A stretch of 30,803 nt of DNA. Source: a virus. Under the pieces are notes generated by a model. The model had not been told where the DNA came from. It did not search any database and worked only from the letters and a program-made list of their open reading frames with translations. The stretch spans positions 1 through 30,803 of the IMG/VR virus record IMGVR_UViG_3300034073_002852, one strand, 5' to 3'. The position numbers and the translations under genes were made by a program. Shown here piece after piece: positions 7,309-28,461 of this stretch; positions within the stretch are counted from its first letter, which is position 1; every line of letters begins with the position of its first letter.

Positions 7309-7349
7309 GTCAGTAAGATATTTTTTTTCTTGAACTGTTGGAGATATTC

Positions 7350-7985
7350 ATGGCAATTGTAACTATTGGAACCCAAGACTGGGATGATCAAAATCTTGAT
7401 GTTGATGCGTTTGGAGATGGAACACCAATACCAGAAGCGTCTTCATCTCAGCAATGGATAGACTATTGTAGCAATAGTACACCGGCATGGAGATACTATG
7501 ACAATAGTGATAGAAATGCCAGTACATATGGGAAACTGTATAACTGGTACGTTGTAAGTGCTTCCCTTACAGCACATCCAATAACTGAGAACCCTCAATT
7601 TAAAGTTCCAACCGCAGATGACTATAACACACTCATAACCTATTTAGGTGGTACACGTGCAGCTGGATTTGCAATGAAGAATACTGAAAATTGGGGAACA
7701 CTTACACGTATTTCTGGTAATGGTTCTAACTCATCTGGATGGAAAGGTAATCCTGGTGGATTTGTTACAGTTGGTGGTGAATTTTTCGATCTCACATGGA
7801 GTGGAAACTGGTGGTCAAGTACTTCAGCATCCGCAAATGATGCTTACGCATACAAACTCTATTGGCAAAATCGTAATGCTATATCAGTACTCACACCACA
7901 GATTATGGGTCTATCTATACGACTTATATCGGATGGTGAGTGGACAGGAAGTGTTGGATTCAAACCAAGTGAGAACTGGGGCTAA
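7350..7985 (+). CDS. FISUMP-domain (C-type-lectin-like) protein
   Basis: The protein (211 residues from the ATG at 7350, with GGAGA six bases upstream; the in-frame TTG at 7338 is rejected) is one FISUMP domain, the Fibrobacter succinogenes major paralogous domain common in Fibrobacterota and Bacteroidota surface proteins. Landmarks are IGTQDWDDQNLDV (6-18), YGKLYNWYVVSA (60-71), FKVPTADDYNTLITYLGG (84-101), PGGFVTVGGEF (135-145), NWWSSTSAS (153-161) and GLSIRLISDGE (187-197), equivalent to the usual GFSVRCV end. No signal peptide is visible. The fold is related to C-type lectins, so a role as a virion adhesion module or host-derived surface protein is likely. It is flanked by a terminator and motif on the left and a terminator on the right, so it forms its own unit. 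Confidence 0.85.
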   Translation: MAIVTIGTQDWDDQNLDVDAFGDGTPIPEASSSQQWIDYCSNSTPAWRYYDNSDRNASTYGKLYNWYVVSASLTAHPITENPQFKVPTADDYNTLITYLGGTRAAGFAMKNTENWGTLTRISGNGSNSSGWKGNPGGFVTVGGEFFDLTWSGNWWSSTSASANDAYAYKLYWQNRNAISVLTPQIMGLSIRLISDGEWTGSVGFKPSENWG

Positions 7986-10656: not shown

Positions 10657-11316
10657 ATGGCAGGATTTTACGACGATGAAACAGAGAACGAAAACAGACT
10701 GGTTAGTAAAGAATCAACAGAACGTGGAGAAGATCTGCCGGTAAAGTGGAAAGAAGCACTTTCACAAATAGATTACGGTATGGATGTTGAGACTTCTACC
10801 ATTTATATGTTTGGTGATATTGCAGACGGTACATTGTATGATTTAGTTTTACGTGTACGGGCAATTATGCATATGAGGGATGAAAGTAAGAAAAATGATC
10901 CTGTCACTATTGTAATCAATTCAGATGGTGGTGACGTATATGAGGCACTCGGTATGATTGATTTTATTCAATCACTGAATGTCAAAGTGAATACAATTTG
11001 CCGAGGACGTGCAATGTCAGCTGCAGCACTTCTTTTATGTGCAGGAACGGGAGTTCGTGCGGCTTCGAAACATAGTACAATCATGTTCCATGAATTGAGC
11101 ACTGGTCTTTACGGTAAGTCATCTGACATGAAAGCTAATGCTCGTCATATGGAAAAGTTGGAAGATATTCTTCTAACAATCATGACTGATAATTCGAATA
11201 AGGATAAGAAGTTTTGGAGTGATGCCACTATCAAAGACTATTATCTAACACCCGATGATGCTGTCAATCATGGAGTTATTGACAAAGTAATTGAACCAAA
11301 ATTTACAAGAGGATGA
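10657..11316 (+). CDS. ClpP-like serine protease
   Basis: A self-compartmentalising serine protease of the ClpP/crotonase fold (219 residues). After about 40 extra N-terminal residues the fold starts with STIYMFGDI. The glycine-rich oxyanion strand is INSDGGDVYEALGMIDFI (87-104), the nucleophile Ser121 is in GRAMSAAALLLCAGT, and the catalytic His145 is in TIMFHELSTG. The acid is probably Asp189 or Asp194 in the FWSDATIKDYYLTPDDAV segment, where ClpP has RDxxRD. The end, GVIDKVIE, matches the ClpP C-terminal strand. In tailed phages such proteins act as prohead proteases or, with host ClpX, in protein turnover. No capsid gene is beside it, so the target is unknown. Confidence 0.85.
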   Translation: MAGFYDDETENENRLVSKESTERGEDLPVKWKEALSQIDYGMDVETSTIYMFGDIADGTLYDLVLRVRAIMHMRDESKKNDPVTIVINSDGGDVYEALGMIDFIQSLNVKVNTICRGRAMSAAALLLCAGTGVRAASKHSTIMFHELSTGLYGKSSDMKANARHMEKLEDILLTIMTDNSNKDKKFWSDATIKDYYLTPDDAVNHGVIDKVIEPKFTRG

Positions 11317-11317
11317 T

Positions 11318-11650
11318 ATGGAGTTTATGGTTTTGTTTTTGGTTTTATTACTACTTGTATCATTCTATGTAATATACAATCTTTACACAAAGTACCAGGC
11401 ACTCGAAAGAGTTGCTCAGGAAAATGTAGACTTTATCTTCTCCATGCGAAACCGTGTACTAAGTCAACAATCGTATTTGAAACAATTGGATAGAAAGGGT
11501 TCGTTTGAGGCGGATGATGAAGTAGGAGTCTTTTTCAATGAGCTAAAGAAAGTAATCAATGATATTGCTGTCTACTTAGAAATAGATGATGAACCATCGG
11601 AAGAAGAAACATCAAGAAATTCTTTCAATGGTAGAATAGAGAGGATCTGA
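11318..11650 (+). CDS. Small membrane-anchored coiled-coil protein
   Basis: The ATG at 11318 follows the preceding stop after one base and has AGAGGA (11309 region) upstream; the in-frame TTG at 11291 is not needed. The 110-residue product has an N-terminal membrane segment (3-20, mostly Leu, Val and Phe), a coiled-coil helix (22-55), and an acidic C-terminal helix and tail (EIDDEPSEEETS). No family is recognised. It sits between the ClpP-like protease and the late sigma factor, separated by two bases from each, so all three are in one operon. Confidence 0.65.
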   Translation: MEFMVLFLVLLLLVSFYVIYNLYTKYQALERVAQENVDFIFSMRNRVLSQQSYLKQLDRKGSFEADDEVGVFFNELKKVINDIAVYLEIDDEPSEEETSRNSFNGRIERI

Positions 11651-11652
11651 TT

Positions 11653-12384
11653 ATGGAAGTAAAGAAAAAGAAGCAGAATATCTATTTCACACAGGAAACA
11701 GAGGATGCAATAAACGAGTACAATAAGTGTGAAGACCCGGTTATTAGAAACATAATCTACACGAAGAAAATTCATCCTGCATTTTACAAGTTGGCAGAGA
11801 TTATGATACACCGATTCAAGTTTTATAGTTTCGACGTCCCACATGAAGATGTAAAACATGAAGTTGTTACGTTCTTACATGAGAAGATAAGTAAATACGA
11901 TGGAGAAAGTGGGTTCAAGGCATTCTCTTATTTTTCAATAGTTGCAAAGAACTATCTGATAGCTGAGAATAACAAGAACTATTATCACTATAAGAAAAGA
12001 CATAGTTTAGAGACAATAGATTCTGAACGAAATATCGTAAATGAACAGTTACGTAGTGAATATATTGACGAACAAAAAGACTTCATAGATATGTTTGCAG
12101 AAATCATGGAACAATTTTTGCCTTTGATTTTTACAAAGAACAGAGATTTACAAGTAGCAGACTCGGTATTGTATCTTTTCAAAACTCGTGACAACATAGA
12201 AAACTACAATAAAAAGGCTCTATATATTCTCATTAGAGAAAGAACAGGTATAAAAACACAGTACATAACAAATGTCATTACCAAGTTCAAGTTTATCTAC
12301 GGAAGACTCTATGAGGCATATTCAGACGGAAGAAACATAGCCGATATGGATTGGTTTGACATTCAAGACATTATTGAGGATTAA
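11653..12384 (+). CDS. 55: Late-transcription sigma factor, T4 gp55-like
   Basis: A small, phage-encoded sigma factor that redirects host RNA polymerase to late promoters. The 243-residue protein has the layout of the gp55 group in T4-like phages: a short N-terminal FTQETEDAINEY segment, then a region-2-like helical domain with RNIIYTKKIHPAFYKLAEIMIHRFKFYSF (32-60), HEDVKHEVVTFLHEKISKYD (64-83) and FKAFSYFSIVAKNYLIAENNK (88-108), the part that binds the polymerase clamp and the -10 motif. The C-terminal half is helical and less conserved. Like gp55 it lacks a normal region 4, so it would need a sliding-clamp co-activator; none is in this window. It lies just before the tail genes it would activate. 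Confidence 0.82.
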   Translation: MEVKKKKQNIYFTQETEDAINEYNKCEDPVIRNIIYTKKIHPAFYKLAEIMIHRFKFYSFDVPHEDVKHEVVTFLHEKISKYDGESGFKAFSYFSIVAKNYLIAENNKNYYHYKKRHSLETIDSERNIVNEQLRSEYIDEQKDFIDMFAEIMEQFLPLIFTKNRDLQVADSVLYLFKTRDNIENYNKKALYILIRERTGIKTQYITNVITKFKFIYGRLYEAYSDGRNIADMDWFDIQDIIED

Positions 12385-12399
12385 CATAGTTATAGTTAT

Positions 12400-12771
12400 A
12401 TGAGCTTTGATACAGAAATATTTGGAAGTAAAAAGTTCTCGGATTTACTCAAAGATATTTACGAGAACCAAAAAAAGAAAGACCGGCAGATAAATCTTCT
12501 GATTGCGGACTTGAAGCCTCTTATCACAAATATAAGTGATGCGGCTTTACTTGTACCCGTAATCAAAGATTACATGGAAGTATCCGTCAAGAATGACGAA
12601 CATCTTGTAAAACTCGCTGCTGTTGTTCAACGTATGGTCTCGAAAACTACGGATGAAGGGAGCTCATTCTTGACAGACGAGGAAAAGGATGCTCTTCTAA
12701 AAGAGATAAAAAACATCGGTGAAGCAAAGGAGGAGACAAAAATAGATGAATCCCAAAAAGATAATACTTAA
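12400..12771 (+). CDS. Conserved phage protein beside the hub gene
   Basis: A 123-residue helical protein of a type that I remember from marine T4-like phages next to the baseplate hub gene: MSFDTEIFGSKKFSDLLKDIYENQKKKDRQINLLI at the start, a central VIKDYMEVSVKNDEHLVKLAAVVQRMV (55-81), and a polar, Glu/Lys-rich end. The function has not been assigned. It overlaps the gp5-like gene by 26 bases, and its end carries the strong ribosome binding site of that gene. Hub assembly or chaperoning is a reasonable guess based only on position. Confidence 0.65.
   Translation: MSFDTEIFGSKKFSDLLKDIYENQKKKDRQINLLIADLKPLITNISDAALLVPVIKDYMEVSVKNDEHLVKLAAVVQRMVSKTTDEGSSFLTDEEKDALLKEIKNIGEAKEETKIDESQKDNT
12728..12735 (+). 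promoter_or_regulatory. Strong ribosome binding site for the hub gene
   Basis: AGGAGGAG lies ten bases before the ATG at 12746, inside the end of the preceding gene. It is among the strongest Shine-Dalgarno sequences in the window and fixes the start of the gp5-like protein. Confidence 0.7.
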
Positions 12772-14068
12772 CGCCGAAGAATATGAATGGGCACCCGCAG
12801 AAGTCGTTAGTGTTGATTATGAGAATAAAACTCCTAACCGACTTTTTACTATTCAATGTAAGTTTCTGAATTCCGATTCGGCTGGCTCACCAATGGACTT
12901 GGTGCAGGCTAAACCAATCAACGCAAACATAAAACAAATACCACTAAAAGGTGAGGTAGTTTTTGTTTGTAAGGGGCCAACCGCATATCATTCTGGTGCT
13001 GGTAGTGGTCGTGAGTATTATTACACATCACCCATTTCAATTCAATCATCGGTACACCAGAATGGACTTCCTGGTGCAAACAGAGTTGTTTTAGATGAAC
13101 GGAGTAATACAAATAAGGCAACTGATTCTAGTCTTGGGTTACCATCAAGACTAACTGACAATACTCTTGTAAAAGATACCATCGATCCTACATTTCCAGA
13201 AAGACTCGACGTATTTCCGATCCAGCCTTACTCAGGTGATATTATTTTTGAAGGCAGATGGGGTCAATCTATTCGTCTAGGTTCAACAGTTGACACGAGA
13301 CGTAGATACCAACAAAATCCTACATGGGGTGTTGGAACTGGTGCAACAGGAAATCCCATTACAATCATTTCAAACGGGACGAATCCAAAACGAAATGAAA
13401 AAACTTTCAATCAGTTTCACATCGAAAGTCCGGATAATGACGATGCATCTATCTGGCTTACATCAGGACAGTCTGTAAAATTCAAACCCGCTTCTGAGTA
13501 TACCCCATCTATTTTTGATAAGGAGATTGGACTATTTAGAAAGAACCTATTTGGTGGAAATCAAATAATACTAGCATCTGATAGAATCGTATTGAATGCC
13601 AACAAACAAGAAATAGTTGGATTCTCTAAAGCCGGTATCGGGTTCGCAACAGAGGCCACACTTGCACTAAACGCAAAGAATATCGTTGAAATAGAAGGTG
13701 GTAGAATATCAATCGGTTTCAATGCTACCTCACCTGTGATATTGGGTGATAGACTGATAGATCTTTTGAAGTTTTTGATGGACGTATTGATAGATATGAA
13801 TACGTCTATAGTTCAGATGACACATCCAACTGGAGTAGGCCCGTCAGGAACTCCTGTCAACAGTGGGGACTATATCAATTACATAAATCAACTAAGTCGT
13901 CTTATAAGTACTCTTCCTAATTTGGCAAGTAAGTTTGCTTTTGTGAATGAATTTTCAGGTGGTGCCAATCAGGCTGATAAAAACAGATTCAATGAATCTA
14001 AAAATAACAATTTTGTTGTAACTATCCCACAAAAACAAGATGGCGACGGGACATCACGTTTAGTATAG
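12746..14068 (+). CDS. 5: Baseplate hub/spike protein, gp5-like without lysozyme
   Basis: Forms the central hub and spike complex of the contractile tail. The 440 residues begin with an OB-fold-like domain (about 18-100) containing IPLKGEVVFVCKGP (65-78), followed by a linker and PYSGDIIFEGRWGQSIRLGS (161-180), a segment typical of gp5-like hub proteins of marine T4-like phages. Next come strands with NQFHIESPDNDDASIWLTSGQ and a repetitive stretch (IILASDRIVLNANKQEIVGFSKAGIGFATEATLALNAKN, about 274-312, as overlapping short strands) that would make the beta-helical spike stem. A helical region follows and the end is polar. T4 gp5 carries a lysozyme domain between the OB fold and the spike; none is visible here. 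Confidence 0.78.
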   Translation: MNPKKIILNAEEYEWAPAEVVSVDYENKTPNRLFTIQCKFLNSDSAGSPMDLVQAKPINANIKQIPLKGEVVFVCKGPTAYHSGAGSGREYYYTSPISIQSSVHQNGLPGANRVVLDERSNTNKATDSSLGLPSRLTDNTLVKDTIDPTFPERLDVFPIQPYSGDIIFEGRWGQSIRLGSTVDTRRRYQQNPTWGVGTGATGNPITIISNGTNPKRNEKTFNQFHIESPDNDDASIWLTSGQSVKFKPASEYTPSIFDKEIGLFRKNLFGGNQIILASDRIVLNANKQEIVGFSKAGIGFATEATLALNAKNIVEIEGGRISIGFNATSPVILGDRLIDLLKFLMDVLIDMNTSIVQMTHPTGVGPSGTPVNSGDYINYINQLSRLISTLPNLASKFAFVNEFSGGANQADKNRFNESKNNNFVVTIPQKQDGDGTSRLV

Positions 14069-14090
14069 TTTGATTCAGGTGAGAATCTAA

Positions 14091-16730
14091 ATGGCAACAC
14101 AAGCTGAAATACAACAACAATATGATAATGAAAAAAGCCAGAAGATACTTCAACTTCAAACTACGTTTGTTGGTAGATCAGTTCAGTCTGCAAAACAAGC
14201 AGGATTACTAAAGAATGGTATTTCTGTAATAAGTGCAACTGCAACCGCGGATGATTTTTCTCCTAAACTAAATTCGTCTATATTAGGTAAATCTGATACC
14301 GAAAATAGAGGCTTCATACTTTCTACTATACGTGACGGTATGGTTGAAAAGTTCTCAACAACTGATGGTGTGTTTTCGTATGTAATCTTGGAATGTATTT
14401 GTTCAATTACAAGTATCGATTCGAGTAAAATAACACTGAATTATTCAATCATAGAAAGATTGTACCTGAAGGGTCAGAATTCTGGAACTGCTAGTGAGAT
14501 ATTCACCGGAGGCGGTGGGATAAGAAAAATAGAAGTGCCTAATAATTCAAATGCGTTCTCTCAGCTTAGGAAAGAACTTTCTGCTTTTGATTATCCTGTA
14601 GCGAACATAACTTCAAACGGTAGGTTTGATACATATCTACAATTCGTAAACACAAAATTGAAAGTTGAATCTATACCTCAATTAGATTCACTTGCATTAG
14701 TTGGGTTCGCCGTTTTTAGTTTGGGGGACTATAATAGTATATTTCCTAAACCAGACGGATTGATCGAGACACCAACAACCCTCACACCAACAGATACTGG
14801 TGTGGTAGTACCATCTGTACCTACTGATTCTGTTGATGTAACCGGAGATTCAAATTTAGGTTCTGTAACTTCGCCTATTTCAACTACACCATCAACTCCT
14901 ACGACTCCAACTAGTACTGGTGGTATAAAGTATCTTTCTATCGAAGCCGTAAAAGACGATGACCCCGGCATTAGAAGTGAAACTGTTCCAACTGCACCGA
15001 TTAGATATATCTCGGTTAGAGCTGTTACAGATGAGGAGGTTGAATCCTCGTTTAGATCGGGTGGATTGAATGCAATAACAACACAACAGACAGCAATTAG
15101 AAATACGGAGAATCCACTAAAGCCGACTGATGGGGTGAATACTGTAGTTGCAGAAAATGAACGAATTGAAATAGAAAAAAGAACGCTTGCACAAATAAAG
15201 GCCGAGGAATCTGATGCTCTTGCTAAGGCACAAGCCAAAGAAAAAGCTTTGTCTGGGCCTGTTGGCCCAAATCCAGACTTGAAGGACGGAAAAACTGCAA
15301 GCACAGACAGTAAAACTGATCCTATACCAGAAGAACAAAAACCTGATAAATTAGATCCCGAAACGTTGAATACAGAAACGCCAACATTCGTATCTTGGAT
15401 AAACAAAAATCCACCAAAATCCGGTGATAGATTTATATGGAATCGTAGGCTTTTGGGAGAACGACCGTATCCACCAAAGCAACCACCACCTGTAAATCTA
15501 AATGTTTCTACCCCAAAAAATTACAAGAGTTTATTCGACTGGGGTACTAACTTATCTAAATTTTTTTCTGGATATGAAAACAAAATACAATCACCACTTG
15601 ATGTTTGTTTGTTGATGAATACCATGACTGTTGGTGGTTTCAATAAAAATCTACCATACTTATTCGATGAGGGTTCTGAGCCACATCTTCTTATGATAAA
15701 AGGATCTTACGTTACTGATGAAGAAAAAGGTGTATTGGGACAAACGGGGGCTAATGTGAATAAGGGTAATTTGGACTCTAATTGGAGTGAAACCCCATAT
15801 TGGTGTGGACTTACGGTAGATTTTATGTTGTTTAAAAACGGCATATACGTTTCAGATGAAACTAAGTTGCCAATAGTTGGAACTGGTGTTATTACTACAT
15901 ACTTTGCTAATTCTCCAGTGAACAATCCTAATGCAGAAGCCGAAAGGCAAAGGAAAGCTATCAATAAGTTAGATGGTGATATAAAGTCAAAAAAGAAACT
16001 AATAGCAAGTATAGACGACTCACTTCAAAATAAGAAAAAGGGTTTATATGGAAAGCGAACGAAGTTGACCGCTGACTTAACACAAATTCAAGCTGATTTA
16101 TTAGTAGATCCAACTCCTAAGCTCGAAAAGACTGAACGTAGTAAGAAAGTTGACCTAGATAAGGTTGAATCTGATATAAGAAATAAAGAGGCAACAAAAG
16201 AAAACTTACTTTCGGAAATAGTTGAATTGGAAAAACGGCGAGAAGAGATCCGGAATACGCCCATTTCAAAGTATGTTGTTACAAATGATGTTATCAAGTT
16301 TGAAAAGGGTATACATTTTACGGATAGTGGATTTACCACTGAAGGTCTTGAACTGTGGAATATTTTGAAAGACTGGCCTGGTGCGTATATTGTTAGACCT
16401 GGTCATACCGAGTTATTATTACATATAAGTAAAACTTCAAAGGTATATGTCATATTTGGAAACTCTGGTTATTCAGATGGTACCAGAAACGGTACAACTT
16501 TAGGTCTCAAGGCATACCCTAACATCAGTAAATTTGGTGGTTCTGTAATTTATATTGTAAAACGTGGAACAAAAACCCCCTACACTAATGGACTTGGTAT
16601 TAGTGTGAAAAAAACCGAGCTATACAATGAATATATTCAACGAGTACAAAATAATGATAAAAAACTAGGTCTAGTCAAGAAAGATCAGACAAGTGCTTAT
16701 AACTTGCTACGTGATATAATGGAGGTGTAA
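14091..16730 (+). CDS. Large baseplate-region protein with possible split cysteine amidase
   Basis: An 879-residue protein directly after the hub gene, so probably a tail or baseplate component. Residues 1-220 form a mixed domain ending in FAVFSLGDYNSIF. Residues 225-440 are rich in Thr, Pro and Ser and probably flexible; they contain a duplicated 12-residue motif (280-291 and 305-316). Residues 500-610 and 725-845 look like two halves of one enzyme domain: Cys572 in YWCGLTVDFMLFKNG, His772 in RPGHTELLLHI and Asn791 in VIFGNSGYSD, the order and context of CHAP/NlpC-type amidases. A long coiled coil (611-722) separates the halves. This could supply the peptidoglycan-cleaving function missing from the hub. 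The enzyme call is tentative. Confidence 0.6.
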   Translation: MATQAEIQQQYDNEKSQKILQLQTTFVGRSVQSAKQAGLLKNGISVISATATADDFSPKLNSSILGKSDTENRGFILSTIRDGMVEKFSTTDGVFSYVILECICSITSIDSSKITLNYSIIERLYLKGQNSGTASEIFTGGGGIRKIEVPNNSNAFSQLRKELSAFDYPVANITSNGRFDTYLQFVNTKLKVESIPQLDSLALVGFAVFSLGDYNSIFPKPDGLIETPTTLTPTDTGVVVPSVPTDSVDVTGDSNLGSVTSPISTTPSTPTTPTSTGGIKYLSIEAVKDDDPGIRSETVPTAPIRYISVRAVTDEEVESSFRSGGLNAITTQQTAIRNTENPLKPTDGVNTVVAENERIEIEKRTLAQIKAEESDALAKAQAKEKALSGPVGPNPDLKDGKTASTDSKTDPIPEEQKPDKLDPETLNTETPTFVSWINKNPPKSGDRFIWNRRLLGERPYPPKQPPPVNLNVSTPKNYKSLFDWGTNLSKFFSGYENKIQSPLDVCLLMNTMTVGGFNKNLPYLFDEGSEPHLLMIKGSYVTDEEKGVLGQTGANVNKGNLDSNWSETPYWCGLTVDFMLFKNGIYVSDETKLPIVGTGVITTYFANSPVNNPNAEAERQRKAINKLDGDIKSKKKLIASIDDSLQNKKKGLYGKRTKLTADLTQIQADLLVDPTPKLEKTERSKKVDLDKVESDIRNKEATKENLLSEIVELEKRREEIRNTPISKYVVTNDVIKFEKGIHFTDSGFTTEGLELWNILKDWPGAYIVRPGHTELLLHISKTSKVYVIFGNSGYSDGTRNGTTLGLKAYPNISKFGGSVIYIVKRGTKTPYTNGLGISVKKTELYNEYIQRVQNNDKKLGLVKKDQTSAYNLLRDIMEV

Positions 16731-16731
16731 A

Positions 16732-17160
16732 ATGAGTTTAGACAAATTACTAAAACAAATACGGGTTATCATTCGTGAAGAGATAGAATATGCTCTTGAG
16801 AAAAAACTGAACGAGAGTCAGGTGAAGAAAAAGTTGGATACCGAAACTCTAAACCACGGTATGAGTTTGATGAAAGAAGTTGGTTTGGTAAAAAAACCAA
16901 AACAGAAACCATCTAAAACTGGTTTGAGTAGTATTCAAGATATACTGAATGAGACACGATTATCAATGGAAGCTGCGATGTCAGATGATGAGTACCCTGA
17001 GATGCGTTTTACTACGGACTCTATCGTAGCTGGCAGACAAACCCCAAGTATGGTTCCTGACGGTTATTCGGATAGCGAACTAACTCCTGAAGTATCAAAG
17101 GCTCTTACTCGTGATTACTCATCTCTCATGGCTAAGATAAACGAGAAAAAGGGAGCGTAA
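16732..17160 (+). CDS. Conserved small tail-region protein
   Basis: A 142-residue protein that starts one base after the previous stop, with GGAGG about 8 bases upstream. It has a helical N-terminus (IRVIIREEIEYALEKKL), a basic linker (KKPKQKPSKTG), a conserved-looking LSSIQDILNETRLSM helix (residues 65-79), and a final helix LTRDYSSLMAKINEKKGA. I recall similar small proteins before gp25 in T4-like phages of marine bacteria, but no role is known. Its place between the hub-region protein and gp25 suggests a baseplate assembly factor or minor component. Confidence 0.6.
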   Translation: MSLDKLLKQIRVIIREEIEYALEKKLNESQVKKKLDTETLNHGMSLMKEVGLVKKPKQKPSKTGLSSIQDILNETRLSMEAAMSDDEYPEMRFTTDSIVAGRQTPSMVPDGYSDSELTPEVSKALTRDYSSLMAKINEKKGA

Positions 17161-17162
17161 TA

Positions 17163-17684
17163 ATGGCATTTAGAAGAAAAACCATTCTCATCAACTCACC
17201 CGTAGATCAAAACACATCACAGATTCGTGATTTGACAAAACCAGGGACTCTAAAACCGATTGGTATTACTATACCATTCAACAATCCGAGTGGAGTATTC
17301 TTCAAGAGTTTTACGAACCGTGAGCAAGTTTTGAGTAACCTAAGGAACCTGTTACTTACAGCTAAAGGTGAGAGGTACTTTGAACCAGAATTTGGTACGG
17401 ATATACGGGGTGTTTTGTTTGAAAATATCAGTAATGAGGAGGACTTCTCATCAAGACTTAGAGGCGAAATATCTTCAGCGATTTCTCGTTGGTTGCCGTA
17501 CTTGGTTATTACGGATCTTACCGTCGATATAAACATAACAGATGAAGGTCAAGTGGATAATCCCGAACACGCAGTAAGCATATTTTTACGTGTTCAAATC
17601 TCAGGAACAAACATATATTTGCCGGTCAGGATATTTATATCTGAAACAGCAACTATTCGTGTAACAGAAGAGGCTCAGAACTAA
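17163..17684 (+). CDS. 25: Baseplate wedge protein gp25-like
   Basis: A member of the gp25 family (GPW_gp25), a sheath-polymerisation and wedge component conserved in all contractile injection systems. The hallmark NLLLTAKGERYFEPEFGTDIRGVLFE stretches over residues 62-87 and includes the family's conserved E-F-G core. Further strands (VITDLTVDIN, SIFLRVQISG, LPVRIFISE) complete the lysozyme-like gp25 fold. An additional 40 residues at the N-terminus are longer than T4 gp25. It overlaps gp6 by one base (TAATG), the same order as in other T4-like tail operons. Confidence 0.92.
   Translation: MAFRRKTILINSPVDQNTSQIRDLTKPGTLKPIGITIPFNNPSGVFFKSFTNREQVLSNLRNLLLTAKGERYFEPEFGTDIRGVLFENISNEEDFSSRLRGEISSAISRWLPYLVITDLTVDINITDEGQVDNPEHAVSIFLRVQISGTNIYLPVRIFISETATIRVTEEAQN
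17632..17639 (+). promoter_or_regulatory. TATTTATA motif inside the gp25 gene
   Basis: TATTTATA lies in the end of the gp25-like gene, 44 bases before the gp6 ATG. The distance matches the motif positions before 7350 and 26612. Being inside a gene it may be chance, since the octamer also occurs at 26492 and 28608 without a clear purpose. Confidence 0.25.
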
Positions 17685-19585
17685 TGGCAGATTTAGTAAA
17701 AAAGGATATTCGTTATCTCGCTAGAGATTTCGGATCACTACGTCAAAATCTAATCGATTTTGCAAGGAATTATTTTCCTAACTCATACCAAGACTTCAAC
17801 GAGTCTTCACCTGGCATGATGTTTCTTGAAATGTCTGCCTACGTTGGTGATGTACTTTCTTACTATACCGACGTAGCTCTACAAGAATCCATGATTCTTC
17901 AGGCATCAGAGACTCAGAATATTTTGAACCTTGCACAATCATTTGGATACACACCAAAGACATCTGTTGCTGCTAATGTAACTCTTGATGTATTTCAAAT
18001 TGTACCAGCTATTGGTAGTGGAATAAACAACAGACCCGATTGGAACTATGCTTTTGCAATAGAACCCGGTATGCAAGTATCGGCGGAAAACGATAGTAGT
18101 ATTCAATTCAGAACAATAGAGTATTTAGACTTTAGGTTCAGTAGTTCTTTTGATCCAACTGAGATAACAGTTTTCGAAGTTGATGATATATCAAACGAAC
18201 CAACCTTTTACTTACTAAAGAAGTCTGTGAATGCGGTTTCTGGTGTTCTAAAGACTACAACTTATGATTTCGGATCACCAAAACCATATGATAAAGTCAT
18301 ACTACAAGACGATAGGATTATCGAGATACTATATGCTATAGACTCCGATGCAAATAAATGGTATCATGTACCGTATCTTGCACAAGATACTGTCTTTGAG
18401 GCAGTTCCGAACATTCCAAGAAATGACACATCATTGAATATCCATAGAAATGAAACACCATACTTGTTGAAGTTGAATAAAGTTGCACGTAGATTTTCTT
18501 CTCGTGCGTTTGGTAACAACTTCTCTAGCTCATATGAGATAAACTTTGGAGCCGGAGTTTCTGATTTTGATGACGAGGAAATCATACCAAATCCAGACCT
18601 AATCGGTTCATCTTTATCAGGTATAGAAACGTCAGCTTCGCCAAACATAGATCCTTCAAACTTTCTCTATACGAAGACATATGGATTGGCACCTAATAAT
18701 ACAACACTAACGGTTTACTACACACAAGGTGGTGGAGTTCGTGACAACGTTAGTTCTGAAACTTTGACTCGAATCATAAGTAGAACTATAACCTTGGATG
18801 AAACTGGTTTAGATACGACGCTTTACAATCAGGTAATTGGTAGTTTAGCAACAACAAACACTCAACCAGCAACCGGTGGTATGGATGGTGAAACCATAAA
18901 CGAAATCCGTCAGAATGCACTTGCCTCATTTGCGTCACAGAATAGGGCGGTAACAAAAGAAGACTACATAATACGTGCTTATAGTTTACCACAACGTTAC
19001 GGGTCAATTGCAAAAGCTTACATCACAAAAGACACACAACTTACCGAGGAATCTATCTTCAATAGTGATCGTGTTGCGAACGATCTGGCTTTGAATTTAT
19101 ATGTACTTGGATATGATGCTAATAACAAACTAACTACTATAAATGATGCGACTAAAGAGAATCTAAAGACATACATAAATCACCACCGTATGCTCACTGA
19201 TGCCATAAACATAAAGGACGCATATGTTGTGAATATCGGTGTGGAGTTTGACATCATAACGTTACCAGATCAAAATGGTAACCAAGTAATACTTCGATGT
19301 ATAGAACGACTAAAGAGATATTTCGATATAAAACGTTGGCAGATAAACCAACCCATTGTGATCAGTAATGTTTTCACTGAACTGGACAGAGTTGAAGGTG
19401 TTCAAACTGTAATTGATGTGAAGTTTGTGAACTATTATGATACAACATTAGGTTATTCACCATATGCTTATGATTTAGTTCGTGCAACGAAGGATGGTAT
19501 CATTTTCCCATCCCTCGATCCATCTATTTTTGAAATCAAATATCCTGACAATGATATTGTTGGTAGAGTGAGGGCATTTGGATGA
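17684..19585 (+). CDS. 6: Baseplate wedge protein gp6-like (Baseplate_J)
   Basis: Core of the baseplate wedge that joins wedges into the inner ring. The 633 residues start with the typical DIRYLARDFGSLRQNLIDFARNYFPNSYQDFNESSPGMMFLEMSAYVGDVLSYYTDVALQE region (about 8-68, seen as consecutive conserved helices), which is diagnostic of gp6 in T4-like phages. A beta-rich middle follows, then the Baseplate_J part with GETINEIRQNALASFASQNRAVTKEDYIIRAYSLPQRYGSIAKAYI (around residues 405-450) and a C-terminal wedge domain with EFDIITLPDQNG and FDIKRWQINQPIVIS. The length is close to T4 gp6 (660). It overlaps the neighbours by 1-4 bases. Confidence 0.93.
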   Translation: MADLVKKDIRYLARDFGSLRQNLIDFARNYFPNSYQDFNESSPGMMFLEMSAYVGDVLSYYTDVALQESMILQASETQNILNLAQSFGYTPKTSVAANVTLDVFQIVPAIGSGINNRPDWNYAFAIEPGMQVSAENDSSIQFRTIEYLDFRFSSSFDPTEITVFEVDDISNEPTFYLLKKSVNAVSGVLKTTTYDFGSPKPYDKVILQDDRIIEILYAIDSDANKWYHVPYLAQDTVFEAVPNIPRNDTSLNIHRNETPYLLKLNKVARRFSSRAFGNNFSSSYEINFGAGVSDFDDEEIIPNPDLIGSSLSGIETSASPNIDPSNFLYTKTYGLAPNNTTLTVYYTQGGGVRDNVSSETLTRIISRTITLDETGLDTTLYNQVIGSLATTNTQPATGGMDGETINEIRQNALASFASQNRAVTKEDYIIRAYSLPQRYGSIAKAYITKDTQLTEESIFNSDRVANDLALNLYVLGYDANNKLTTINDATKENLKTYINHHRMLTDAINIKDAYVVNIGVEFDIITLPDQNGNQVILRCIERLKRYFDIKRWQINQPIVISNVFTELDRVEGVQTVIDVKFVNYYDTTLGYSPYAYDLVRATKDGIIFPSLDPSIFEIKYPDNDIVGRVRAFG

Positions 19586-20754
19586 TCTACACAATTTACC
19601 CGAAGTTTGATACTACTATCTATGAAAAGACAGAATCCCTAAATACGGGAACTGATCAAATACTTGAGCTTTCACATGAGTTGGTTGGTTCGTCTTCTAT
19701 TTACAACAGTCGAATTCTTATGAAGTTCGATATGACTGATATAGAGTCGAGAGTAAACTCTGGAAAGATTGGGAGTGACGCTAGATATTACCTTCAGCTT
19801 AGAACCGCAGAAGTTAGAGAGATACCACAAGAGTACACCGTGTATGCGTATCCTGTGAGCGGTACATGGGTAAATGGAACTGGAAAATATTTCAACACTC
19901 CAATAACAACAGATGGTGCTTCTTGGACATATCGTAGTTCAAAACAAGTTGGTAGACTTTGGGGTGTAACTGAAGTAACTGGCGGTATAAATTACGAGTG
20001 GGATGAAATATCCGAATCTTGGGTTGACGCTGATTTGATTTTTGGTGCTCTGTTTGCCAGTTCAACTGGATCCTACTTTACCAATGTGGGTGGTGGAACT
20101 TGGTGGACGTTTGAAAACACAGAATGCACACAGTCATTTGCATACGAGTCGTCTGACATTTACATGGATGTTACATCTATTGTGAACAAGTGGATAACCG
20201 GTTCTGGTAGATTTGATAACGAGGGGTTCATACTGAAGTTTTCAACTGAATTGGAAGCTCTAAATCAGTCGGTAACTAGTCTAAAGTTTTTTAGTACTGA
20301 TAGTAACACCATTTACGTGCCAAGACTACAAGCTGTATGGGATGACTCACAGTTTATCACTGGTAGTCTTCCGTCTGTATCACTTGAGGATGTTGTTGTA
20401 GGTGTGAGCTTGAAAAGATCCTATTCTGAAACAGAAAAGGCAAAGATAAGAGTCGATGCTTATACGAAGTATCCTCAGAAAACATACACAACACAATCGT
20501 ATTACACTCAGAAGTATTATCTCCCATCTTCTTCATACTATGAGGTGAGAGATGCGAGTACGGATGAAGTAATAATACCATTCAACCTAACTGGTAGTAA
20601 AATAAGTTGTGATACTGAAGGTAACTATTTCAATTTGTGGATGAATTCTTTTCAACCAGAAAGATTTTACAGAGTCTTAGTTAGAGTCGATACTGATGGT
20701 GGGGATGTTTCCCAAATCTTTGATAACAACTATTACTTCAAGGTTTCAAGATGA
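19582..20754 (+). CDS. DNRLRE-like structural protein
   Basis: A 390-residue, beta-rich protein between gp6 and a coiled-coil protein. The N-terminal 230 residues follow the DNRLRE pattern found in surface proteins: a starting strand KFDTTIYEK, a LNTGTDQILELS segment, SRILMKFDMTDIESR, then AYPVSGTWVNGTGKY, SDIYMDVTSIVNKWI and NEGFILKFSTE. The C-terminal half (TYTTQSYYTQKYYLPSSSYYEVRD, in short repeated Tyr/Ser steps) is an additional beta domain. It starts within the last bases of gp6 (ATGA), so it is likely a tail or baseplate component made together with gp6. Its position might correspond to a wedge-periphery or fibre-attachment protein; the exact role is not known. Confidence 0.6.
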   Translation: MIYTIYPKFDTTIYEKTESLNTGTDQILELSHELVGSSSIYNSRILMKFDMTDIESRVNSGKIGSDARYYLQLRTAEVREIPQEYTVYAYPVSGTWVNGTGKYFNTPITTDGASWTYRSSKQVGRLWGVTEVTGGINYEWDEISESWVDADLIFGALFASSTGSYFTNVGGGTWWTFENTECTQSFAYESSDIYMDVTSIVNKWITGSGRFDNEGFILKFSTELEALNQSVTSLKFFSTDSNTIYVPRLQAVWDDSQFITGSLPSVSLEDVVVGVSLKRSYSETEKAKIRVDAYTKYPQKTYTTQSYYTQKYYLPSSSYYEVRDASTDEVIIPFNLTGSKISCDTEGNYFNLWMNSFQPERFYRVLVRVDTDGGDVSQIFDNNYYFKVSR

Positions 20755-22520
20755 TTCGAATAGAACAGTTTTTGTTTGAAAACGGAATTGAAAGGACTCA
20801 AGCTGAGGCCTTGATAGCACAGTTTCCGACGCTCCAATTTCCAACCGCTCAGGAATTTATAGACTACTTTGAATCACAAAACATTACACTCACATACGAA
20901 ACTAAGTTGGGTGTGAATCGTGAAGTATTTCAACCAAAGGATGAGTTATTACAAAAGTTCAAAGATTTCAAATCTTCAACTGACTACGATTATGTCAAAA
21001 AGTACATAGCTGAGCAGAGGAGAATTCAAGCTGCTATAGATAGTGGTGACATAGTAAGATCATCTAATCTTTTGGAAGGAATTACAAACCAACCTTTAGA
21101 CCCATTTTTCAATTTCATAGTTAGAAAAATGCTAACAGGAAGTGAAACTGGAGTCTTACCATCAGAATCCTTACGTTCACTACTAGATGAACTAACTAAA
21201 AAAACACAACAAGATATAGACACAACTGTTGGTGTTAGTCGAGATGAGTTGGGTCGTATAATTTCATTTGATAACTACCTTAGAAATAAAGGTGTTGTTA
21301 AAGTTGAATTGTTGGATGAGCGGTTTGCTATTGAATCTTTCAATTATGTTGTTGATAAGAAGTTCGACCAACTTGAAAATGCTATTACTGCTGAAAAAAA
21401 TGTTCTACGTCGTGCAGCAGAGTTTGACACTCTATTTCCAGTTGATGCAACTGGAGACGGTGTAGTTGATAATAGGGATTTTATTGAAAACCTAAAGCAA
21501 TTGATAGTCAGTGATTCGAATAGTGTTGCTGCATTGCAATCTAGGTTGGAGGTACTACAAACACAACTATCTGATATAAATGAACTAGTAAACATAAAAG
21601 ACTCTGATCTTGATGACCTGAATAGGATTATAGCCGAACTCTCAGTAGAGAGAAGTATAATAGAAGAAGAAAACGCGGTGAAAGATGAAACTATCATTGC
21701 ATTGAATGCGGTGATAGATGCTACACTGGCACAATTGGAAGATAGAGTTTCACAACAACTAACAAATACAACCGATGCTTTCGATGCACTAGCTACACAA
21801 ATAGAGGCACAAGCTAAGAAGTCGGAGGAAGCTTCCGCTAAACAATTAGCTGCCTTTGAAAAGGCTGTGAGTGGTCTAGCAGATTCTCTAAAACCGGCGG
21901 AACCTGAGCCAGATCCAGAAAATCCAGCGGCAGAAGTGATAAAGCAAATCTTGGACAAATGGGACAAGATAACTGTTATATCAGAAACAACATACACTAA
22001 GTTTGTCAGAGTTTTGGACATACTTGGTGCCAAGAAGCCAACAAAATCAACTTATGTATTTGTTCCACCGGCAAAGGGTAATCCGTTCAATCCATCTGAA
22101 GAGATAAAACAACATCTGAAATGGAATAATGAATTGAAACCACAGATAAAGAGTATAGTTGCTGGTTTAGCGGATAAAGCGGCTGCCGAAGAAGTTTTGA
22201 GAAACGTAAATGATATTCTAAATGATGTGAATGGAAGTCTAAACAACAATGGTATGTATAACACTATAGTTGCTGCGTTAGATGCTTGGGTTGAAGACCA
22301 AGCACAAGTCCGTGGATTTGCAACATCCGTTATAAGAAAGATAGCATTGGAAGTAGGATCCAAGTTTCCAGCCACAAATGATTTAGGTGGTAGTAGATCG
22401 TTGGCATTTCAAGCGGCTACTGGTATAAAAACAAGACTAAGTAGGGATCAAGATCAACTAATAAACATACTGACTATACTAGATGAAATCAAGAATAATG
22501 GTGCAGCATTCGGGTGGTAA
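20751..22520 (+). CDS. Coiled-coil tail protein with calcium-loop motif
   Basis: A 589-residue protein, mostly alpha-helical. The first 65 residues form a small domain (QAEALIAQFPTLQFPTAQEFIDYF). A calcium-binding loop of the dockerin/EF-hand type, DATGDGVVDNRDF, is at 232-244 with Asp at positions 1, 5, 9 and 12 of the loop. Residues 250-385 are a long coiled coil (repeated Leu, Ile and Ala heptads). An acidic Pro-rich hinge (PAEPEPDPENPAAE) at about 383-396 leads to a C-terminal helical domain. It overlaps the preceding gene by four bases. Position suggests a tail or baseplate part, possibly a tape, whisker or fibre-linking element. No specific family is recognised. Confidence 0.65.
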   Translation: MIRIEQFLFENGIERTQAEALIAQFPTLQFPTAQEFIDYFESQNITLTYETKLGVNREVFQPKDELLQKFKDFKSSTDYDYVKKYIAEQRRIQAAIDSGDIVRSSNLLEGITNQPLDPFFNFIVRKMLTGSETGVLPSESLRSLLDELTKKTQQDIDTTVGVSRDELGRIISFDNYLRNKGVVKVELLDERFAIESFNYVVDKKFDQLENAITAEKNVLRRAAEFDTLFPVDATGDGVVDNRDFIENLKQLIVSDSNSVAALQSRLEVLQTQLSDINELVNIKDSDLDDLNRIIAELSVERSIIEEENAVKDETIIALNAVIDATLAQLEDRVSQQLTNTTDAFDALATQIEAQAKKSEEASAKQLAAFEKAVSGLADSLKPAEPEPDPENPAAEVIKQILDKWDKITVISETTYTKFVRVLDILGAKKPTKSTYVFVPPAKGNPFNPSEEIKQHLKWNNELKPQIKSIVAGLADKAAAEEVLRNVNDILNDVNGSLNNNGMYNTIVAALDAWVEDQAQVRGFATSVIRKIALEVGSKFPATNDLGGSRSLAFQAATGIKTRLSRDQDQLINILTILDEIKNNGAAFGW

Positions 22521-22524
22521 ATAA

Positions 22525-25500
22525 ATGGCAAACTTTGAATACAAGAACATAAACGAGATAATCGCAGATAACAATCCAAAGAGGGGAATTACATTTCCAC
22601 TTGAAGATCTTGCATTATTAGAAAAGCGAACGATCGTACCAGAATTTGATCCGAGTGTTATAGATTCAGTTACTGGAAAGAATTCATTCAATGTAGAACT
22701 CCATGTATTTTTACGAAACTTGTTTTACGTAAAATCAGCATACAACATTGATACGTATTCTTTAGTTGATGGTAAAGACTATCCAAGTTTGTCACTACAG
22801 ATTCACAGAGATCTTGAAAATCTAAGCGTTCCACCCACTGAATACAAAGTTGTTTACAACTTCTTACGTGACTTTATAGGGTCATACGATTCTAAAGACA
22901 AGATGTTTATATCCGAAATATCTGACGATAGAACGGAGCTAAAACTTTCACTTGCGAATCCAAACTCTGAACAAGGGGTTGCTCAACTCGCTAGATTTGT
23001 CCTTGAGAATCTAAAACCGAAAACCTTTATACCACCAATAGTCTTGAACTTTGGAGAAAACAAGCTTGTTGATGTTATAAACGTTACATCGGATGGAGAC
23101 CCATTCTCATTCTATGTAAAACTATATGAACCACTTAGTCCAGACTTAGACATTTTCTTTACGTGTTGGGTTGCCGTTCGGTTGATGAAGCCGTACATTG
23201 ACACGGTAAACATTTTACCCGATCAATTTGAGCCAGAGATTCCATTTATAAAAGGGCCAAATTTTGAGGTAGATTACGATTACTGGACTACATCGGATAC
23301 CGAATATAAGTCATGGACGGAAATCCTAAGTGAAAATGTTCAGACATCTGAACAACTGATAAACCGATATATTTCAGGTTCTAGTTTGCCAGTTACACTG
23401 AATGTGGATTATACAGACTTCAAGAACTTTGTCTATTATTCTAATGCAAGAGATCGTGTTGATAACTTCGCATACAAGATGGAGTTGATAGAATTCTACA
23501 AGTCGGAACTAAATACACTTTCTACTATAACAGGATCTGTTGCAACAAACCGTATAAAGATTCAGTTACTGAAGGATAAGGTTATAAGTGGATTCGATGG
23601 ATTTGAAAAATACCTATACTATAACTCAACTGGTAGTTACAACTACACGTATCAAATAAGCGCATCAATAGTACCTTATCCAAAATACGAACTTGATGTA
23701 ACTGCTAGTGTTTATGACATAGCTACGAAGGAAGGAAAATTCAATTTCTATTCATACACATCTTCTTTTGTAGAAAATTGGTTGGACTCACTTCTTGAGT
23801 ATGCAACAGACTATGATGCAAAAAATTACACAGCGTTAGCAAAGGCACTACCAGATCATATCAGAGAAGATAGTGATAACGACCAGGCCGTAACGTTCGT
23901 CAATATGTTAGGTCAACACTTTGATATTATGTATCTGTACACGGATCACATTTTGAAGAAGAACCTAAGAATGGAACATCCAAATGATGGTATTTCACAG
24001 GATCTTATATTTGACGCAACAAGAAACTTAGGTTGGACGTTATCACATGGAACTCAGACAAAAGATTTATGGGAATACGCACTTGGTATAAGTGGTAGTA
24101 CCGAACCAATATGGACTGGAAAAACAACCATAAACAAGTATCTTGCTAAATCATATGAAGAGAGAACAAAAGAGGTGTGGAGGCGTATTTTCAATAATCT
24201 TCCATACATCTACAAGACAAAAGGAACTGCCCGTGGTATAAAGGCACTTCTTGCTGCTTATGGTATACCACAGACTATTCTAACTATTCGTGAATTTGGT
24301 GGGCCGGATAACGCAGACTTGGGAATAATTCCAAGAGCAGAGTGGGAAAAACACACGTACTATCTAAATCTACGTGGTTCTTTACCAACACCAACCACTG
24401 CAAGTTATGTTAGTATTCCGTGGGAAAAGGTCACAAGTCCAACTGGCACATGGCAATATCCAGACACTCTAACATTCCGTTGGAAAATGGAACCAGAAAG
24501 TAGATATACCTACACAGGCAATTCAACACAGACCCTACTTCAGAAGCAGTCGGGAAGTCGAGTGGATTGGTTTGTAACAATGGACAAAAACTCAGGAACA
24601 GATCTTGGTAAAGGTACATTGGCTTTCTGGATAGGTGATGGAACAACATATACTTCAGCGTCATTCTACGATCAGTATTTCTATGATGATGTACCAATAA
24701 GTCTCATGATCCGTAGAAACCTGAGTAATGATTTGACTGCATCAAATCAGACCTATGATGTTTTTGTAAAAACAGCGAAGTATGGCAAACTTGTAATAGA
24801 ACAATCTGCCAGTATTTCTATAAACGGAACAACCAGTGGTAGTTACAATCAGGCGTGGGTATCAGATGGAAATCTGTATATCGGATCTGGATCTAATATT
24901 CAAACTGATAACATCTTATCGGGTTCAATTTTCGAATTGAGATATTGGTCTTCTCCACTTGAAGAAAGTTCTTTCAATAATCACGTTATTGCTCCAAGAG
25001 CATACAACGGAAATAGTTCAACATCTTCGTTCTATGATCTACAAGCTCAATTCAAGTTTTGGCAGGAGTTTGATACTACACTGACTTCAAGTATAGCTAG
25101 TTCACACCCCAATCAAACACTGAGTAGTTTCTACTCGTCTCCAAAAACCGCATCTCTAATTGGATTCAATTATGATGCTTTCGAGTCGATAACTGAAACC
25201 TACAACATGGAAGTTGCAACGGTAGGAAACAATACACCTTTCGCTGAAAAAGTTCGTTTAGACTCTGGATCATTGCTTGGTGGGTTAGACCCCAATTACT
25301 CATCCGAGGTATCTAGATTTGATAAGTTCTCGGTTGACTCAAATAAGCTCATGGTAGCATTTTCGCCTCAGAGTATAATAAATGAAGACATCTACGAGGC
25401 AATAGGTTACACTTCAATAGATGACTACTTTGGTGAGTATTCCAATATAGACAAAGATGAATATCCAAGACTAAAATGGTTTGCGAGAGAGTACTGGCAA

Positions 25501-26553
25501 AAATACCCGAATAAAAATGACTTTACGGCTTACATTCGTCTAATATCACAATTTGACTTTAGTATCTTTGATCAAATTCGCCAAACTTTACCAGCCCGTG
25601 TAAACGAGATTCTTGGTATAGTTGTTGAACCAAATATCTTGGAGAGATCAAAAGTTCGTTTGGTGAAGAATTTTAGCGGGGTGTCTGAAACAGTAACTAG
25701 AACAAACGAGATTAGTTCGTCTGGTACTCCAAGTGCCACCGTATCTTCTAAAAGAGCCACTATCCTGATTGGTTTCGAGAATGAAAGTTCTTATCAAGAA
25801 ATCGATGGTGAAACCGATATAGCTATACAGTTTGAAGGATCACAGGATATAAATGTTGCTGGAGACTATGACACTGTAGTTATTCCAACTGGATTTGCAA
25901 GACAGTATAAGTTAGAAATAACAAGTTCTCGTGGTACGGGATTTGCAAATTTTGTACGTAATACTTTTGTTCCTTACAAAACGACCATAACTACAACTAC
26001 AGGTTCTATAAATTCGTTGCTTACAACTTACACCAGTTTGATTCAAAACAGGACATATGGTAGAGTTTTCGGAAGTATTTCATCTGGAGTCGGCACTGGA
26101 GTCTCGACTATATTTGGTGTTGTTGATACTGCATTCACCAATACGTTTGAAAGAGAAAACGTATTTTACTCTGAAGGAAGTCCAGATATAGGATTTGGTT
26201 CGGGTTGGATTGTTCAGAGAAATGACTCAGGTAAGTCTCAAGCTGTATTTGAATCAACACAATCTTTTAGACGTGATAGTTATTACAGTGAGTACGTTTT
26301 TGCTTACACCAGTAGCAAAGATATGGATGAACGAAATTACTTCTCGTATACATTTACAAGTGCAAGTTTTGAGAATCCACATAACTTACCAAAACCAATA
26401 CGAGACCATCGCTTTGATGGGTGTAAATTGAGTGGGCCGGATATAAATGTAGATTCAAGTGAATCTCCAGACGGTAAGCCAGTAGTAGAAGTATTTATAG
26501 TAGATCCTAATCAGATAAACTTGAATCAAAATTTCACAAATAGTGGAATATGA
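22525..26553 (+). CDS. Large baseplate/tail structural protein with lectin-like domain
   Basis: At 1342 residues this is the largest protein of the window. Residues 1-250 are a domain rich in Asp, Phe and Pro; 250-500 are helical; the segment at about 555-590 (FNNLPYIYKTKGTARGIKA, then LLAAYGIPQTILTIREFGG) reads like the region of tail protein I and related wedge proteins that joins baseplate to fibres. Residues about 640-835 resemble a LamG/concanavalin-type beta sandwich (LTFRWKMEPES, GKGTLAFWIGDG, DGNLYIGSGSN, SIFELRYWSSPL). The remainder is beta-rich with Thr/Ser/Gly repeats, and ends near NQINLNQNFTNSGI. Its size and place after gp6 invite comparison with T4 gp7 (1032 residues), but homology is not shown. 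The lectin-like domain could bind host glycan. Confidence 0.65.
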   Translation: MANFEYKNINEIIADNNPKRGITFPLEDLALLEKRTIVPEFDPSVIDSVTGKNSFNVELHVFLRNLFYVKSAYNIDTYSLVDGKDYPSLSLQIHRDLENLSVPPTEYKVVYNFLRDFIGSYDSKDKMFISEISDDRTELKLSLANPNSEQGVAQLARFVLENLKPKTFIPPIVLNFGENKLVDVINVTSDGDPFSFYVKLYEPLSPDLDIFFTCWVAVRLMKPYIDTVNILPDQFEPEIPFIKGPNFEVDYDYWTTSDTEYKSWTEILSENVQTSEQLINRYISGSSLPVTLNVDYTDFKNFVYYSNARDRVDNFAYKMELIEFYKSELNTLSTITGSVATNRIKIQLLKDKVISGFDGFEKYLYYNSTGSYNYTYQISASIVPYPKYELDVTASVYDIATKEGKFNFYSYTSSFVENWLDSLLEYATDYDAKNYTALAKALPDHIREDSDNDQAVTFVNMLGQHFDIMYLYTDHILKKNLRMEHPNDGISQDLIFDATRNLGWTLSHGTQTKDLWEYALGISGSTEPIWTGKTTINKYLAKSYEERTKEVWRRIFNNLPYIYKTKGTARGIKALLAAYGIPQTILTIREFGGPDNADLGIIPRAEWEKHTYYLNLRGSLPTPTTASYVSIPWEKVTSPTGTWQYPDTLTFRWKMEPESRYTYTGNSTQTLLQKQSGSRVDWFVTMDKNSGTDLGKGTLAFWIGDGTTYTSASFYDQYFYDDVPISLMIRRNLSNDLTASNQTYDVFVKTAKYGKLVIEQSASISINGTTSGSYNQAWVSDGNLYIGSGSNIQTDNILSGSIFELRYWSSPLEESSFNNHVIAPRAYNGNSSTSSFYDLQAQFKFWQEFDTTLTSSIASSHPNQTLSSFYSSPKTASLIGFNYDAFESITETYNMEVATVGNNTPFAEKVRLDSGSLLGGLDPNYSSEVSRFDKFSVDSNKLMVAFSPQSIINEDIYEAIGYTSIDDYFGEYSNIDKDEYPRLKWFAREYWQKYPNKNDFTAYIRLISQFDFSIFDQIRQTLPARVNEILGIVVEPNILERSKVRLVKNFSGVSETVTRTNEISSSGTPSATVSSKRATILIGFENESSYQEIDGETDIAIQFEGSQDINVAGDYDTVVIPTGFARQYKLEITSSRGTGFANFVRNTFVPYKTTITTTTGSINSLLTTYTSLIQNRTYGRVFGSISSGVGTGVSTIFGVVDTAFTNTFERENVFYSEGSPDIGFGSGWIVQRNDSGKSQAVFESTQSFRRDSYYSEYVFAYTSSKDMDERNYFSYTFTSASFENPHNLPKPIRDHRFDGCKLSGPDINVDSSESPDGKPVVEVFIVDPNQINLNQNFTNSGI

Positions 26554-26569
26554 AAAACAAAAAACTTGA

Positions 26570-26577
26570 TATTTATA
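26570..26577 (+). promoter_or_regulatory. TATTTATA motif (candidate late promoter)
   Basis: TATTTATA in the 58-base gap, 34 bases before the ATG at 26612, preceded by CTTGA. The gap is one of the largest in the tail operon, and the following gene has a strong AAGGAG site (26599-26604), consistent with an abundant virion protein. Confidence 0.4.
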
Positions 26578-26611
26578 TGAGTAACAGTATATTCAACAAG
26601 GAGTAACAACA

Positions 26612-27307: not shown

Positions 27308-27349
27308 GTCACGACTGTTATAGATTCAACTAAATGATAGGAACAAAAT

Positions 27350-28456: not shown

Positions 28457-28461
28457 AAGTT

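Follow-up and report, generated by a model that had tools for sequence, protein, structure and literature searches.

A baseplate-cluster gene of an uncultured phage probably encodes an exchangeable papain-like cell-wall hydrolase with a coiled-coil insert

The gene at 14091-16730 of the window, by which we mean the whole stretch of 30,803 nucleotides analysed here (positions 1 to 30,803 of IMG/VR virus record IMGVR_UViG_3300034073_002852), very probably encodes a baseplate-associated cell-wall hydrolase, which has an exchangeable papain-like module with a hairpin insert and probably opens peptidoglycan locally at infection. The fold family, the register of the catalytic triad, the nature of the insert, the swap of the cassette and the pattern of Cys and His loss were established computationally. 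The open reading frame and the triad positions are those of the original prediction, with C572 in TPYWCGLTV, H772 in VRPGHTELL and N791 in VIFGNSGYS. The gene, its parts and its neighbors are arranged as follows.

12746..14068, + strand: preceding hub-like ORF, 440 aa, no lysozyme domain detected
14091..16730, + strand: whole gene, 879 aa, ATG start; N-terminal part, linker and papain-like catalytic module with coiled-coil insert
14091..14765, + strand: N-terminal domain, residues 1-225, presumed attachment part, a fold without a profile match
14766..15284, + strand: Pro/Thr-rich linker and short motifs including AKAQAKEKALSGP, residues 226-398
15285..16731, + strand: exchangeable cassette, residues ~399-879, from BLASTN against L002/L038
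15522..16727, + strand: catalytic module as modelled, residues 478-879 (AlphaFold pLDDT 82, pTM 0.72)
15801..15836, + strand: active-site helix WCGLTVDFMLFK, residues 571-582, from the predicted structure
15804..15806, + strand: Cys572 codon, predicted nucleophile
15933..16106, + strand: coiled-coil insert, ascending helices 615-646 and 652-672, from the predicted structure
16116..16253, + strand: coiled-coil insert, descending helix 676-721, from the predicted structure
16290..16562, + strand: beta-sheet half, strands 734-739, 765-769, 772-779, 785-789, 805-809 and 819-824, from the predicted structure
16404..16406, + strand: His772 codon, predicted general base
16461..16463, + strand: Asn791 codon, predicted third triad residue
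16732..17160, + strand: following gene, 142 aa, conserved right border of the slot
17163..17684, + strand: gp25-like baseplate wedge gene (Pfam GPW_gp25, 2.1e-9)
17684..19585, + strand: baseplate wedge (gp6/J-like) gene, anchor for syntenic relatives

In the reading we favor, residues ~478-879 would form one CHAP/NlpC-type cysteine hydrolase domain, nearest to TIGR02594, in which Cys572 opens a helix, His772 opens a strand and Asn791 comes directly behind the next strand; an antiparallel hairpin of ~110 residues (611-722) is predicted to interrupt this domain after the Cys helix and before the beta-sheet. The N-terminal part would be docked on the baseplate and the Pro/Thr-rich linker would present the enzyme, which may nick peptidoglycan when the tail reaches it; both the location in the virion and the activity on peptidoglycan are what we infer for this protein. 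The module would be exchanged as a cassette, the slot of relatives holding GH19, GH24 or M15 enzymes.

Direct scans found no Pfam, PHROG or NCBIfam family matching the window protein on its own, a profile search of PDB sequences gave no match, tblastn against isolated phages detected no homolog of the protein or of its halves, and scans of bacterial and archaeal genomes recovered no relatives. Since the protein matches no family, nor anything in isolated phages, relatives were gathered by synteny, using the baseplate gene at 17684-19585 as the anchor and defining the slot as what lies after the hub-like ORF and before the 142-aa gene. The cluster is also present in Microcystis phage Mel-JY01 (68% in the anchor gene), in Flavobacterium immuto phages and in many IMG/VR contigs, and the contents of the slot were read in a broad selection of phages sharing it.

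The slot is occupied by window-type proteins of ~880-1060 aa, in which a C/H/N domain carries a coiled coil or another long insert; by compact proteins of 455-477 aa (L051, L056, L061, L083), which have the C/H/N domain without a coiled coil; by related proteins with different inserts at the same insertion point (L109, L111, L123, L127, L128); by versions with Ala, Ser or Asp replacing the Cys; and by unrelated hydrolases, namely GH19 alone in Mel-JY01, L031 and L034, and GH19 together with M15 in L042 and L057 (Pfam M15_4 in L057, 1.7e-13). The suggestion that the cell-wall enzyme sits in the gene adjacent to the hub is supported by GH19, GH19 plus M15 or other hydrolases in the same slot of relatives, and the gene, lying inside a baseplate cluster in a slot that elsewhere holds other muralytic enzymes, has the context of a tail-associated lysin. 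A hydrolase in the slot of every relative was considered and rejected: in immuto (L005) and LR756508 (L006), both distantly related, no hydrolase was recognised there. Several slot proteins (L034, L084, L123) contain long (GTS)n or (TSG)n linker repeats, possibly spacers of variable length.

The ORF preceding the gene (12746-14068) is taken to be a gp5-like hub from its position and appearance, not from a profile match; as had been proposed, it seems to lack a T4-gp5-type lysozyme domain, since neither Pfam nor PHROGs gave a lysozyme hit. Other genes in the region can be described briefly. The gp25-like gene of Mel-JY01 (L004:8505-9008) is annotated as 'tail lysozyme', and its window counterpart matches Pfam GPW_gp25, not lysozyme. 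Beside the baseplate genes, 10657-11316 of the window encodes a ClpP-like protease (Pfam, 6e-32), and the PHROGs label for similar proteins is head maturation protease. The 243-aa protein at 11653-12384 has the appearance of a T4 gp55-type late sigma factor and gives no Pfam or PHROG match, and 7338-7985 encodes a Fib_succ_major domain protein (Pfam, 1e-23), a protein in a similar place in Mel-JY01 being annotated 'major paralogous domain'.

The fold was assigned from a 32-member family alignment (A5); another alignment (A2) was too diverse to serve as a query for a collection search. TIGR02594 was matched by 13 of the 32 members with a best E value of 3e-5, and each half of the domain, the one with the Cys as well as the one with the His and Asn, aligned to its counterpart in the profile; no member scored individually reached the curated cut-off of 70.55 bits (at most 17.7 bits). 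TIGR02594-type phage enzymes for comparison were fetched by motif. In hhalign, alignments built on majority columns gave short local matches only, and using a compact sequence as master gave an alignment over the full domain. With L051 as master, comparison to the real phage enzymes yielded 93.9% probability, an E value of 1.6e-7 and a score of 53.1, which none of 100 column shuffles reached (maximum 19.5) and against which the reversed alignment scored 11.9. The register holds across the whole domain, pairing C91 with C53, H204 with H105 and GN222/223 with GN122/123.

Because the model bearing the insert drew essentially coiled-coil matches in Foldseek and was little informative about the enzyme, we modelled a compact relative instead. 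The AlphaFold model of L051 (pLDDT 86.6, pTM 0.88) has the CHAP endolysin PlyGRCS as its top Foldseek match in the PDB (E 0.011, prob 0.77), and the first ten PDB matches, most of them weak, include PcsB, the tail tip of phage Andhra and LysK CHAP. In a viral library the matches are mostly CHAP, PlyB-like, C51, NlpC/P60 and TIGR02594 endolysins or proteins. Neither the compact nor the coiled-coil-bearing model has a PDB match below 1e-3, and the fold assignment therefore leans mainly on the profile comparison. The AF2 secondary structure follows a papain-like order, with the Cys at a helix N-terminus followed by a sheet bearing the His and a third polar residue. The 'GD' motif on strand beta-1, which is described for the NlpC/P60-CHAP cluster (PMC10318531), is absent from the window protein, where the strand reads WPGAYIV with the D replaced by A; TIGR02594-type members likewise show PGA, PGC or PGS at this position. 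The window protein gives no profile match to Pfam CHAP PF05257 above the gathering score.

The proposal of a single papain-like CHAP/NlpC-type domain broken by a coiled coil is supported by three lines of comparison: relatives free of the insert exist, the halves match the halves of TIGR02594 with C/H/N in register, and the compact relative is modelled as one domain, with CHAP endolysins making up most of its nearest structures. From the proposed label of peptidoglycan amidase we retain the CHAP/NlpC-type hydrolase domain, on the grounds of profile register and compact fold, and drop 'amidase' as a statement of bond specificity, which is not supported.

The coiled coil placed at 611-722 recurs in the structure model, which predicts helices 615-646, 652-672 and 676-721 at pLDDT ~82-98, and it is an insert because compact relatives are without it. 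These helices are predicted to form an intramolecular antiparallel hairpin, two going up and one coming back, with a turn near 673-675. Amphipathic periodicity at 3.5 residues in the window protein is suggestive, not decisive, since 17 of 200 shuffles reach the same level, so it is the structure model, together with the composition, that carries the coiled-coil call. Mean pairwise identity within the window-type set is 27% in the insert versus 49-60% in other segments of the domain. The spacing from Cys to His ranges over 70-321 residues across the 32 members (112-321 in those bearing the Cys) while the flanking parts still align, so that the family, to judge from its alignment, accepts insertions of widely differing size and nature at the point that separates the Cys helix from the beta-sheet.

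Exchange of the catalytic part can be read at the DNA level. The window and L038, which belongs to the same contig as L002, are 94.5% identical over 11400-15284 and 97.6% identical over 16732-28581, whereas 15285..16731 cannot be aligned to L002/L038 by BLASTN save for one 84-base stretch, with both flanks 94-98% identical. On its right side this cassette is bounded by the start codon of the gene that follows. Upstream of it, residues 1-225 are conserved only in the window-type clade, at ~22-35% identity beyond the near twin L002, and the linker motif AKAQAKEKALSGP resembles a segment that immediately precedes the enzyme in other slot proteins. Two GH19-type slot enzymes have an N-terminal leader in common with compact C/H/N enzymes; between the GH19 enzyme L034 and the compact L051 the leader shows 46% identity across 46 aa (E 8e-8 when 20 sequences were compared). 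The shared leader and the sharp edges of the swap support a fixed attachment part that bears different enzymes.

The triad is conserved in homologues: Cys, His and Asn are kept in 20 of 20 members bearing the Cys in the 32-row alignment. The remaining 12 have lost the Cys and retained the domain. When the columns of the Cys and the His are left out of the tree, these members fall into two separate clades, indicating two independent losses, to Ala in one clade (L026, L028, L029) and to Ser or Asp in the other. The His is lost in 8 of the 12 Cys-less members versus none of the 20 others. Each Cys-less member has another hydrolase or hydrolase-like motif in its own protein or slot: GH19 in L084 (PHROG endolysin, 2.5e-29), a phage lysozyme together with VanY in L113, VanY in L120, NAGPA in L076 and L131, an M15-like metal motif in L026, L028, L029, L068 and L070, and no more than a VanY-like motif, spotted by eye, in L119 and L134. 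A second enzyme need not force loss of the Cys, since L128 retains it despite a gp5-type lysozyme (phrog_27932, 4e-37). NAGPA (phosphodiester-glycosidase)-like domains occur within slot proteins or next to them (L026:2811-5168, L076:4223-8026, L131:3170-7336), which is unusual for a tail cluster; the Pfam value in L076 is 1.4e-6, and the domain in L026 was recognised by eye only. N-terminal alpha/beta-hydrolase-like segments (PLIFVVGG...GYSLG) precede the Cys-less domain in L070, L076, L113, L131 and L134.

Retention of the domain by 12 of 32 members without the Cys means that it can serve a non-catalytic role, and the window protein could by analogy be a structural or binding remnant. We regard this as very unlikely, as the window protein retains all three residues, its slot has no other recognisable hydrolase, and losses are seen only beside substitute hydrolases or hydrolase-like motifs. 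An active enzyme directed at something other than peptidoglycan, such as a host protein or a capsule peptide, would agree with the functional breadth of the papain-like superfamily (PMC10318531), but the nearest families are peptidoglycan enzymes and the slot in relatives is filled by GH19, GH24 and M15 cell-wall enzymes, which makes such a substrate equally improbable. A cell-wall hydrolase is the reading we keep, and the alternatives that follow concern its insert.

The hairpin may be a stalk, a partner-binding surface or a regulatory latch. T4-type hubs are trimeric, and an insert that multimerises the enzyme, for example as a trimer matching the hub, would fit such a hub; helical inserts also dimerise USP25/28 (PMC6509359). 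The structure model shows the insert as an antiparallel hairpin within one chain, at odds with a parallel trimeric coil; we therefore disfavor such a coil, do not uphold the earlier idea that the insert trimerises the enzyme, and consider oligomerisation through it improbable. Somewhat less doubtful, though still not expected, is that the hairpin covers the active site or otherwise keeps the enzyme off while the baseplate is assembled, and moves away on tail contraction. A coiled coil autoinhibits another papain-fold hydrolase, the CHAP enzyme PcsB (PMC11627006), the papain-fold insert of USP25 is dimerising/autoinhibitory (PMC6509359), and members of the window-type clade with Cys replaced by Ala, in which there would be no need for inhibition, are also without the coiled coil. 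Against these points, compact Cys-bearing relatives do without an insert, its sequence and length are highly variable, more as in a spacer or a variable binding surface, and loss of the coiled coil in the Cys-to-Ala clade is a single event that removed other domain elements too. The fuller version, a mechanical latch or sensor within the catalytic core that holds a baseplate cysteine lysin off until contraction, we judge unlikely. To our knowledge, no regulated tail lysin with a latch in its catalytic core has been described.

In uncultured relatives of Microcystis phage Mel-JY01, these results name a family of cell-wall enzymes missed by standard profile searches. They also describe a baseplate slot where one hydrolase takes the place of another, unrelated one, and where displaced enzymes decay one residue at a time, losing first the Cys and then the His. 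The insert in the catalytic core offers a testable case for how tail lysins might be controlled. A small literature search found no paper on this enzyme family or on a coiled coil interrupting a CHAP-like domain.

Among known systems, the TIGR02594 group of CHAP-like phage endolysins (~130-150 aa) is the closest in its motifs, with PWCAAFVNW around the Cys compared to YWCGLTVDF here, a (G)HV/T motif on a strand, GN past the next strand, and a PGA-x-x-V strand ahead of the His. It differs in a Cys-to-His spacing of ~52 residues versus 200, and the window protein has an extra region of ~90 residues before the Cys and an extra C-terminal part, occupies a slot in a baseplate cluster, and scores under the family cut-off. 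CHAP (PF05257) and NlpC-P60 enzymes (PlyGRCS, LysK CHAP, Andhra tail tip, PlyB-like) are the top structural neighbors of the compact member and share the Cys-His-Asn order, but have no sequence-profile match with the window protein. We know of no coiled-coil insert in the protein core of these neighbors. PcsB of Streptococcus pneumoniae also combines a CHAP peptidoglycan hydrolase with a coiled coil, which in PcsB is N-terminal to an uninterrupted CHAP domain and in the window protein lies inside the domain. Insertion of this topology is already known in the superfamily, as deubiquitinases have inserts between the core helix and the sheet (PMC10318531). USP25 and USP28 resemble the window protein in a long helical insert within a papain-like catalytic domain, but they are eukaryotic deubiquitinases, and the insertion point and function are not homologous. 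In its role, the protein would be analogous to T4 gp5, the tail lysozyme, a cell-wall enzyme delivered by a contractile-tail baseplate; in T4 the lysozyme is fused into the hub, whereas the exchangeable enzyme of the window has a gene of its own.
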